From assembly GCA_018262855.1 (NCBI GenBank), contig JADFDO010000013.1, positions 1-61,722 on the forward strand: DNA of 61,722 bases. The letters run 5' to 3'. Source of the stretch: Methanolinea sp. Lineage in GTDB: Archaea > Halobacteriota > Methanomicrobia > Methanomicrobiales > Methanospirillaceae. A program made the translations under genes and the position numbers. A model generated the notes under the pieces. The model did no database searches. It was given only the letters and a program-made list of their open reading frames with translations, and was not told the DNA's origin. Of the stretch, positions 17,042 through 20,577 are shown in pieces. Within the stretch, counting starts at the first letter, position 1. The number at the start of each line of letters is the position of its first letter.

Positions 17042-17572
17042 TTAAGGCCACGCTTTCCTTGCAGCGCGTTCAATAGCCCTCTGGACGGAGTCCCTGGGTA
17101 TAATCGTGGCGACGGGCACTTTCACAAGTTGTTCGATCACGCTGCTCACGATGGGGGCACATACAATGGCAACTGCGCCCTCCCTCTCAGCGCGTGTCGC
17201 AGCAATGATTGCCTCCTCGAGTGTGTGGACGGGATACTCCCTCACCCGGATCTTCCGCCCGTCGACCTCTGCATTCCGCTCTTCGATCACGTCCAGGACA
17301 GGGCGGGCAGCGATCAGCCCGATAAACTCCCCCTCAGAAGAATGGGCGATTCGCCGCATTGCGTGTACTACCGCACGCAGCGTCGAGAGGTTCGGCGATC
17401 GTTTCCCGTGCAATATCTTGTAAAGGGAGCTGGGTGCGATTCCGCTCTGCTCGGAGAGCTCTTTTACACTCAGGCGGAGATCATGCCTCATGACCTCCTG
17501 GAGGGTCTGCACAAACTCTTCATCAGAAATGAGGGCGGCCCTGATCAGCCTCTCAACCGGATCTGTCTGCAT
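17042..17572 (-). CDS. HTH transcriptional regulator with ligand-binding-like domain
   Basis: A 176-residue protein. Residues of about 30-70 form an XRE-type helix-turn-helix (LSVKELSEQSGIAPSSLYKI with HGKRSPNLSTL following). The C-terminal half, from IGLIAARPVLDVIEERN, looks like an alpha/beta effector domain (AIVCAPIVSSVIEQL, VPVATIIPRDSVQRAI). It is divergent from the ABC transporter operon starting at 17751, and the shared 180-base gap has repeated TTGTC half-sites, so it is a plausible local regulator of that operon or of argH downstream. Its regulatory target is inference. Confidence 0.85.
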   Translation of the reverse strand: MQTDPVERLIRAALISDEEFVQTLQEVMRHDLRLSVKELSEQSGIAPSSLYKILHGKRSPNLSTLRAVVHAMRRIAHSSEGEFIGLIAARPVLDVIEERNAEVDGRKIRVREYPVHTLEEAIIAATRAEREGAVAIVCAPIVSSVIEQLVKVPVATIIPRDSVQRAIERAARKAWP

Positions 17573-17707: not shown

Positions 17708-17750
17708 TATTTAAGCTTAGATGGGAGAATTTATCAGATTTCCGGTCACA

Positions 17751-18995
17751 ATGAACATCATGAAATTGTCCACCTTGAGTGTACTCGTTGGTATACTGCT
17801 GTGTATTGCCCTGTTCGCAGGATGCACCACACCAGGTCCTTCAACGGGAACACCCACCCCCACGACCTCCCCTTCCGAAGGGACGGTCATCGTCACCTAC
17901 ACCAAGGGTACAGGACCAATGCCAACCCTTCTTGGAACAGACCAGATTGACGGGTATATCGCCTGGCAGCCTTTTGTCGAGGTCCCGCCGCTCGCCGGAA
18001 TAGGAAAAGTCCTTGTATATTCTGGCGAACTTCCCCCTGAAGGGCACTGGAAAGATCATCCATGCTGCGTCTTCACCGCAACAGAAGGGATGATCTCCAA
18101 TAATCCCGATCTCACCAACGCAATGACAGCTGCAATTATCCTCTCCACACGATACCTGAAGGATCACCCTGAAGAAAGTGCGGAGATTACCGCAGACTGG
18201 CTCGCAGGGAAAGGAAACTTCACATACGGAGACATCTCAGTCTCATCAGTCGAAGTGTTGAAACGGGCTTTCCCAACAGTGGCTTTCACGAATGAGCCCA
18301 CTGACACCTTCACGAGGAACAACCTCGAATTTGTAGAAGCGTTGAGGGACCTGAACGTTCTCACAGGATCTCTGAAAAACTCCACAGACGATGAGACTAT
18401 CCGTATACTCTTTGATGAAAACCCCTACTATGCTGCAAAATCCATGATAGATTCCGGTCAGATCAAAGCACCCGCACCGGTAAAGAGCCCGGTTGGTGTG
18501 GGATACCTTATGTCTGACCATCATGCCTCTCTCTTTGTAGCAATCAGTAAATGGCAATATTTCAATGATACCTACGGAATTGCAATAAAACCGAGGGACC
18601 TCTCGGCGTCGAGGCCGGATACTGCAGACCTCATGGTACATGGAAAGCCGATCGCCGAGCTCAAGCTGATTTCAGGCGACGCAGGACCGCAACTTATGCA
18701 GCTGATGGCGACGAACAACATCCAGTTTGCCCTGGTTGGAAATCCACCCGCAATCTCTGCTGCAGACAAGGGAACACCAGTGAAGATTATCATGGCCCTG
18801 AACAACGAGGGATCCGGGGTTGTCGTGACCGAAGATTCTCCTGCATCTGACTGGAACAGCTTCGTTGCATGGGCGAAACAGCGTTCTGCGGCAGGAAATC
18901 CCCTGAAGATTGCAGCCCCCGGCAAAGGCTCAATCCAGGATGTCATGCTCAGGTATTCCCTCGAAGCAAGCGGTTTATCTATCCGGGAAGGCTAA
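17751..18995 (+). CDS. ABC transporter substrate-binding lipoprotein, circularly permuted
   Basis: A 414-residue exported lipoprotein (lipobox ALFAGC, Cys 25, then a Thr/Pro linker). The sequence resembles the nitrate/sulfonate/taurine (SsuA/NMT1-like) binding family but with its halves swapped. Residues of about 45-244 (TVIVTYTKGTGPMPTLL, then DGYIAWQPF, HPCCVF, NPDLTNA) match the usual C-terminal half. Residues 245-414 (VGYLMSDHHASLFVAISKW, FALVGNPPAISAADKG, GSIQDVMLRYSLEASGL) match the usual N-terminal half. The end EASGLSIREG would join naturally to the TVIVTY start. It is followed after 12 bases by its permease gene. The ATG at 17751 is preferred; 17721 and 17760 are alternatives. The substrate is unknown. 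Confidence 0.87.
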   Translation: MNIMKLSTLSVLVGILLCIALFAGCTTPGPSTGTPTPTTSPSEGTVIVTYTKGTGPMPTLLGTDQIDGYIAWQPFVEVPPLAGIGKVLVYSGELPPEGHWKDHPCCVFTATEGMISNNPDLTNAMTAAIILSTRYLKDHPEESAEITADWLAGKGNFTYGDISVSSVEVLKRAFPTVAFTNEPTDTFTRNNLEFVEALRDLNVLTGSLKNSTDDETIRILFDENPYYAAKSMIDSGQIKAPAPVKSPVGVGYLMSDHHASLFVAISKWQYFNDTYGIAIKPRDLSASRPDTADLMVHGKPIAELKLISGDAGPQLMQLMATNNIQFALVGNPPAISAADKGTPVKIIMALNNEGSGVVVTEDSPASDWNSFVAWAKQRSAAGNPLKIAAPGKGSIQDVMLRYSLEASGLSIREG

Positions 18996-19007: not shown

Positions 19008-19772
19008 ATGAGGTATCTCCGATTCCTCCTCCCCGTTCTTCTTGTAGTCGGTTGGGAGGTTGCATCCTGGATCATCCACAATCCGTTCATTCTTCCTTCT
19101 CTTACTACCGTAATTCCCATCCTAATGCATCCGTTCAGCCCCGAATACACACTTGGAACCGGGAGCATGGTTGAGAATGCCATAATCAGTATCCAGCGTG
19201 TAGGTCTGGGATTCCTCGCTGCTGCGGTCGTCGCAATCCCGGTTGGCATCCTTATGGGGAGATCTGCCCTTCTGAACGACTTTTTCGATTCGACCATTGA
19301 GCTGCTCCGGCCCATCCCGCCACTCGCCTGGGTTCCTCTTGCGCTTGCTTGGTTCAAAATCGGGTTGACTTCGATCATATTTATCATCTTCATCGGTGCG
19401 TTCTTCCCCATCCTCCTGAACACTGTCGATGGGGTCAAGTCTGTCAAAAAGACCTGGCTCGAGGTGGCAACCACGCTTGGTGCAAAAGAGCGGCAGATCA
19501 TGACAAAAGTGGTCCTGCCAGGGGCGGCTCCGACGATCTGGACCGGCCTTCGGGTCGGGTTCGGTATCGCATGGATGTGTGTCGTTGCCGCAGAATGGCT
19601 TCCCGGAATCTCCCAGGGTCTTGGATACCTGATCCTTTACGCCTACAACTTTGGGCAGACCAATCTTATCATTGCCGGCATGGTGGTCATAGGGATCATC
19701 GGTCTTGCGATCGACTTTGTTTTCAAGGGAATCGAGAAAAAGTGGTTCTCATGGAGGGGTCTGGAACGATGA
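19008..19772 (+). CDS. ABC transporter permease, SsuC/TauC type
   Basis: A 254-residue membrane protein with six predicted helices of the BPD_transp_1 family. The EAA loop is present as EVATTLGAKERQIMTKVVLP, and GLRVGFGIAWMCVVAAEW and LGYLILYAYNFGQ match the nitrate/sulfonate/taurine permease subgroup. It works as a homodimer with the ATPase encoded next. The start follows the binding-protein stop by 12 bases (GGGGAAG precedes the ATG), so the operon is binding protein, permease, ATPase. Confidence 0.93.
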   Translation: MRYLRFLLPVLLVVGWEVASWIIHNPFILPSLTTVIPILMHPFSPEYTLGTGSMVENAIISIQRVGLGFLAAAVVAIPVGILMGRSALLNDFFDSTIELLRPIPPLAWVPLALAWFKIGLTSIIFIIFIGAFFPILLNTVDGVKSVKKTWLEVATTLGAKERQIMTKVVLPGAAPTIWTGLRVGFGIAWMCVVAAEWLPGISQGLGYLILYAYNFGQTNLIIAGMVVIGIIGLAIDFVFKGIEKKWFSWRGLER

Positions 19773-19806: not shown

Positions 19807-20577
19807 TTGGTGACCCTGGTCCTTGAGAACCTCTCAAAGTCCTTCGCCGTCGAAGGAAAGACTGAGGTGGAGGCACTCTCCCACCTTAACCTTCAGGTAA
19901 ATGACGGGGAGTTCGTCTCGATCCTTGGACCCTCAGGATGCGGAAAGACCACGCTTCTCAGGATCATTGCCGGGCTCGACCGTGCATCAGGCGGGAAAAT
20001 CCTTCTGAACGGGAATCCGATTGTCGGCCCATGTCCCAGGATGGCCATGATATTCCAGGAATACTCCCTCTATCCATGGAAAACGGTCATCGATAACATC
20101 GCGTTTGGACTCGAGGTGAAGGGAGTCGAAAAAGAGGGGAGAAGAAAAAAAGCCCGCGAGTTGCTGGAACTGGTCGGTCTCTGCGACTTTGCCAATAATT
20201 ATCCATACGAACTCTCTGGAGGAATGCGCCAGAGGGTTGCTGTAGCCCGGGCGCTTGCAGTGGATCCACAGATACTCCTTATGGACGAACCTTTCGGCGC
20301 CCTGGATGCACAGACGAGGAACATGCTCCAGAGGGAGCTTCTCGAGATCTGGGAAAAGACTAGGAAAACAGTGGTCTTTGTCACCCACAGTGTCGATGAG
20401 GCGGTGTTCCTCTCCGACAGGGTTATTGTTCTTACTGCCCGACCGGGGACCATCAAGGAATCTGTCAGTATCGATCTCCCCCGTCCGAGGGACAGGACGG
20501 GTGCAGAATTTGCCAGAATTCGCCGTTATGTACTTGATCTGGTAGAAACAGCGTCTTTCTCCCCCAGTAAGGTTTAA
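19807..20577 (+). CDS. ABC transporter ATP-binding protein, SsuB/TauB type
   Basis: A protein of about 256 residues. Walker A is GPSGCGKTT (about 40-48), the Q loop follows, the signature is LSGGMRQRVAVARAL, Walker B is LLMDEPFGALD, and the switch His is in VTHSVDEA. This is the nitrate/sulfonate/taurine subfamily. The start is TTG 19807 or GTG 19810, with GGAG (19797-19800) six or nine bases upstream. A Met-Ser-Pro-Ser mini-frame of 14 codons overlaps the permease stop but is probably not translated. The C terminus is followed by a short gap to the uL16 gene. Confidence 0.93.
   Translation: MVTLVLENLSKSFAVEGKTEVEALSHLNLQVNDGEFVSILGPSGCGKTTLLRIIAGLDRASGGKILLNGNPIVGPCPRMAMIFQEYSLYPWKTVIDNIAFGLEVKGVEKEGRRKKARELLELVGLCDFANNYPYELSGGMRQRVAVARALAVDPQILLMDEPFGALDAQTRNMLQRELLEIWEKTRKTVVFVTHSVDEAVFLSDRVIVLTARPGTIKESVSIDLPRPRDRTGAEFARIRRYVLDLVETASFSPSKV

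Follow-up and report, generated by a model that had tools for sequence, protein, structure and literature searches.

A circularly permuted SsuA/TauA-like binding protein of a predicted NitT/TauT-type importer in Methanomicrobiales and related archaea

An ABC transporter operon of Methanolinea sp. encodes a binding protein (SBP) whose two halves stand in swapped order, i.e., the protein is circularly permuted relative to SsuA/TauA/NMT1-like proteins, as sequence and profile comparisons demonstrate. The operon lies in the window, the stretch of 61,722 nucleotides that was analyzed (contig JADFDO010000013.1); the permease gene begins 12 bases past the SBP gene and is followed by the ATPase gene (Table 1). 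SBP, permease and ATPase are all of the NitT/TauT type and form one operon. The protein is very probably the SBP of a NitT/TauT-type importer, of the NMT1_2/SsuA/TauA kind, with its chain permuted at a loop of lobe 2.

Table 1. Features of the permuted SBP gene and its neighbors (window coordinates).
Feature	Position	Strand	Basis or remark
Permuted SBP gene	17760..18995	+	411 aa + stop
Signal peptide with terminal lipobox LFAGC (lipoprotein Cys)	17760..17825	+	Sequence and alignment
Thr/Pro-rich linker from lipid anchor to fold	17826..17879	+	Sequence; disordered in AF2 model
Half X, residues 44-236	17880..18458	+	Profile matches, hhalign, PDB profile search
New linker, about residues 237-245	18459..18485	+	Joins old C terminus to old N terminus
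Half Y, residues 246-414	18486..18992	+	Profile matches, hhalign, PDB profile search
ABC permease (BPD_transp_1)	19008..19772	+	Profile search
ABC ATPase	19807..20577	+	Profile search
Divergent regulator REG, Cro/C1-type HTH	17042..17572	-	Adjoins permuted and normal cassettes alike

The SBP frame is open from 17721 to 18995 (+), and with 17751 and 17721 as possible alternative starts the product comprises 411-424 aa. The ATG at 17760 is the more likely start because the proteins of relatives begin at the corresponding ATG. Both the signal peptide and the Thr/Pro linker, which the original prediction had placed ahead of the moved half, were located. Within the lipobox, G24 and C25 were invariant across 24 aligned proteins, and from the signal peptide and the lipobox Cys the SBP is predicted to be an archaeal lipoprotein. 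Half X is the counterpart of the C-terminal half in SsuA/TauA-like proteins of normal order; its first element is the second strand of lobe 2. Half Y is the counterpart of the N-terminal half in normal relatives, and its last element is the GSIQD helix in lobe 2. The motifs quoted in the original prediction were all found in frame, except that the protein reads DGYIAWQPF where DAYIAWQPF had been given.

The swapped order was seen in four kinds of comparison. First, the Pfam profile NMT1_2 (PF13379) matched the permuted SBP with 100.5 bits (cut-off 24.7) as two stretches in swapped order. Positions 17916-18203 aligned to profile positions 163-251 and positions 18660-18983 to 37-150, in the same frame and with zero stops; the linear order of the profile is thus broken, since 163-251 comes ahead of 37-150. 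The NCBIfam profile SsuA_fam (TIGR01728; cut-off 163.5 bits) aligned its positions 138-232 to residues 51-150 and gave the permuted SBP 72 bits, which is below the cut-off, and the normal-order protein L111 182.3 bits. The matches to NMT1_2 and SsuA_fam are far beyond chance. Second, the profile of the permuted proteins of the window's kind (group A) was aligned by hhalign to that of normal-order proteins from the same locus (group N). Positions 1-187 of the A profile matched columns 136-298 and positions 203-370 matched columns 1-135, so that the two matches join at template column 135/136. After re-ordering of A, a single match of 1-356 to 1-298 was obtained (E 1e-45), and likewise a single match when the N profile was doubled. 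Third, on the nearest normal-order protein, the bacterial L155, the A profile gave two swapped pieces of 97.4 and 80.5 bits; on the L155 sequence written twice it gave one piece of 177.3 bits covering model positions 30-398. Fourth, a PDB profile search assigned residues 14-126 of TauA (6ssy) to half Y and residues 127-218 to half X, and none of the 16 matches listed was linear and full-length. Since the TauA halves adjoin at 126|127, the cut falls in the lobe 2 loop that links the GS helix to the strand after it. All 23 named relatives in the alignment (50-82% identity) keep the swapped order from end to end, and full-length conservation of this arrangement was also seen across the window's taxonomic family and order. 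Thus, the proposed circular permutation was borne out by swapped linear matches that became one full-length alignment only once permuted.

It is very unlikely that halves X and Y stem from different proteins and that a fusion of half-SBPs or of unrelated domains merely resembles a permuted SBP. Gain of the moved part from a different gene was considered possible for MglB-2 of Treponema pallidum by its authors (PMC4990184), but here the families matched by one half are also those matched by the other, and both halves carry group-specific insertions that a single normal-order protein (L155) has as well; on the doubled sequence of L155 their scores add up in one piece. The halves also abut without gap or overlap on the N template and on TauA. 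Moreover, the cut lies inside lobe 2, hence neither half is a whole lobe. AF2 modeled the full permuted chain with a pLDDT of 88.9 and a pTM of 0.84 from an input alignment of permuted sequences only, and half Y alone with a pTM of 0.49, which likewise lends no support to separate unrelated domains. Even less credible, and refuted for groups A, B and C, is an artefact of assembly or gene calling: the assembly of the window consists of 31 contigs, but about 100 independent assemblies show the same order, among them the single-contig genomes G033 and G065.

In the AF2 model of the full chain, the order of helices and strands matches that of the two-lobed cluster F (type II) SBP fold, and residues 21-41, in the Thr/Pro linker region, have a pLDDT below 50. 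The folded shape would probably be the usual two-lobed clamp. Linear Foldseek comparison of the full-chain model with the PDB gave nothing above TM 0.28, a value from a run of the permuted model without a matched normal-order control. The matches obtained, of which those to NMDA receptors were best, were all weak and distorted and were read as the lack of a linear match and not as kinship. Searches for folds or domains that assume linear order overlook such permuted SBPs or split them.

The permuted chain opens with the second strand of lobe 2 and continues to the former C terminus; the new linker then leads to the former N terminus, after which the chain passes through lobe 1 and closes with the first helix of lobe 2. 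The SBP would bind its ligand between the lobes as the clamp closes and would hand it to its own cognate permease; its membrane tether would sit on lobe 2 and no longer on lobe 1. Resemblance to known families allows a guess that the ligand might be a small anion such as a sulfonate. None of the curated families nearest to the cassette (sulfonate, taurine, nitrate and Sao transporters) was matched above its cut-off. For the permease the nearest models were SaoP (183.6 bits) and TauC (169.3 bits), and for the ATPase SaoA, TauB and NrtC/D, again each under the cut-off. The Sec-assisted organometallic system SaoX/SaoP/SaoA (NF040735/NF040733/NF040729) provided the best curated matches for permease and ATPase and the second for the SBP. 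However, the permuted SBP reached 42 bits against an equivalog cut-off of 300 bits for SaoX, the SaoP and SaoA scores were also far under their cut-offs, and the neighborhood of the locus showed no recognizable Sao genes.

By profile, each half is homologous to SsuA/TauA/NrtA-like SBPs (PF13379, NMT1 PF09084, TIGR01728), and the homology spans the entire fold; these systems likewise form operons with a NitT/TauT-type permease and ATPase. The permuted SBP differs from them by its swapped halves and by two extra insertions in half Y. The earlier natural case of a permuted binding protein found in the literature is MglB-2 (Tp0684) of T. pallidum alone, a lipid-anchored ABC binding protein for which a 'Cluster Bc' was proposed (PMC4990184). 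Its permutation is conserved in its clade, and it works with its own ABC transporter (PMC4990184). In Tp0684, the first three strands of the N-lobe were moved and the order of the C-lobe was unaffected, within a sugar-binding fold of type I/cluster B (PMC4990184). The archaeal SBP resembles Tp0684 at the sequence level in being homologous to normal SBPs with moved termini. In contrast to Tp0684, it is cut inside lobe 2 of an SsuA/TauA-like protein, and its family matches NMT1/SsuA/TauA/NrtA only and not the type I/cluster B fold. New here is thus a permutation in an SsuA/TauA-like SBP, a different fold class; no paper on the operon or on a permuted NMT1/SsuA-type protein was found in the literature searched. 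One idea for MglB-2 is that permutation serves lipid anchoring (PMC4990184). In the archaeal systems the lipobox is invariant in permuted and normal forms alike, so that anchoring alone does not explain the permutation; this speaks against permutation being needed for lipid anchoring, and the difference would lie in which lobe is tethered.

Group A was present in 100 of 232 Methanomicrobiales genomes (98 strong matches and two fragments), which confirmed that the same order occurs in related methanogens. A permuted paralogue, group B (loci L095-L106), was found in Methanomicrobiales as well; it is about 30% identical to A, cut at the same loop, and accompanied by its own permease and a more distant ATPase in its operon. 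Several members of group B lack the lipobox Cys and carry an N-terminal membrane helix. A third permuted set, group C (L109-L130), occurs in Archaeoglobi and other families of the phylum. Permuted binding proteins had been called rare; among these relatives, however, the permutation is ancient and widespread in Halobacteriota, where the permuted form is spread over several archaeal families alongside normal counterparts at the same locus and in the same genus. The only family found in which the swapped order is standard was the protein's own permuted subfamily, which widened the claim and did not refute it.

Every normal-order relative examined, from other archaea and from bacteria, showed Y followed by X. 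Normal order was found at the archaeal loci L111, L112 and L132-L149 and at all ten bacterial loci with both halves detected. The bacterial whole-genome search covered Pseudomonadota as its sole phylum, and in the 249 genomes sampled all frames listed with both halves had the normal order. The bacterial match L057 was a TctC-like tricarboxylate-binding protein and was dismissed as a chance match. That the permuted order is ancestral and the normal-order proteins derived would agree with the age and spread of the permuted proteins in Halobacteriota, but it is very improbable given the normal order in these bacterial loci, in the normal-order archaeal clades and in solved relatives such as TauA. 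At locus L107 (G369:C58), in a genome outside the order Methanomicrobiales, an A-type permuted SBP and an A-type permease stand with an ATPase nearest to those of normal-order systems; lateral transfer and a binning error are possible readings.

In Methanomicrobiales, the locus has the layout gatE-gatD-argH-regulator, then SBP-permease-ATPase, followed by L10e and fumarase. Some species have a permuted SBP there and others a normal one, even inside single genera (g8, g11 and g17). The group N systems (e.g., L111 and L187) share the locus, divergent regulator, lipobox and operon with group A, and differ by the normal order of their halves. Between congeners with opposite orders, identity was 76-92% for the regulator and mostly 67-87% for the remaining flanking genes; in comparison, it was 37-40% for the permease and 59-65% for the ATPase, and the SBP was alignable by halves only (23-42%). 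Group A occurred in 100 and group N in 116 of the 232 genomes, and none carried both, against 50 expected if independent, a hypergeometric figure that ignores kinship among the genomes. Six normal-order SBP matches (G041, G056, G062, G068, G071 and G079) contained one internal stop codon, possibly through gene decay or through the match extending past its start.

Since SBP, permease and ATPase differ while the regulator and flanks stay, the cassette appears to have been exchanged as a unit under the resident regulator; this favors a common physiological role as well as pairing of SBP and permease. From the shared locus and regulator, the likeliest reading is that permuted and normal cassettes do the same job; their substrates could differ, as the permease and ATPase also differ. 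The permease and ATPase had been described as being of normal order. This is too simple, as the type of the permease changes together with the order of the SBP: in the permease tree, which tracks SBP order, A and B form one clade and C another. Nature thus provides matched pairs of permuted and normal forms in which effects of chain order on the anchoring lobe, on folding or on docking to the permease can be studied.

The number of origins was addressed with a tree of SBPs whose halves had been re-ordered and whose insertions had been excluded. Groups A, B and C were each one clade, A+B was supported by 97/86 and A+B+L155 by 100/98, and C was separate. Joining all permuted sequences in one clade was rejected (p-AU 0.0175; 0.008 without other long branches). 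L155 (also L178; G552:C15:622633-623883) is a normal-order bacterial protein, and within about 5 kb of it no window-like permease or ATPase was found; further normal-order relatives of L155 were found neither in its family nor in its class nor in plasmids. The reading favored here is that A+B and C may go back to separate permutations at one loop, for which the placement of this single bacterial sequence is the basis. We tentatively suggest, at somewhat less than even confidence, that there were at least two independent permutations at the same loop in archaea and a possible third at another loop (L154), with the order interchangeable if the cognate permease travels along. It is also quite conceivable, although less likely than not, that A+B and C go back to one permutation and that the normal order of L155 is a reversal or L155 is misplaced. 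The breakpoints of A/B and C agree to within two alignment columns, the regulator-SBP-permease-ATPase layout is common to the groups, and without L155 one clade was not rejected (p-AU 0.29). Against a single origin stand the rejection obtained with L155, the two half-Y insertions that L155 has in common with A and B and that are absent from the tree data, and the separation of C from A+B in the permease tree too.

The permutation would have arisen by the usual route, with the gene first duplicated in tandem and in frame and both outer parts then lost. No tandem in-frame double SBPs that could represent such intermediates were found among the long frames examined in G412, G416 and other genomes; each of these frames held a single YX unit or combined an SBP with other domains. 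A permuted SBP of another type was observed at L154:6936-8123 (-) (G494:C13:144935-146092); its cut lies where the chain crosses from lobe 1 to lobe 2. It is known from one metagenome assembly and is possibly an artefact; it carries a PGF-CTERM-like C-terminal anchor, and the 41 other genomes of its family with matches gave normal-order or fragmentary ones.

The HPCC motif of the permuted SBP (window positions 18054-18068) is common to many archaeal and bacterial SsuA/TauA/NrtA-like members. Its residues H103, C105 and C106 were invariant in group A and may form a metal or thiol ligand site. The CC of the motif was present also in groups C and N and was partly lost in group B.
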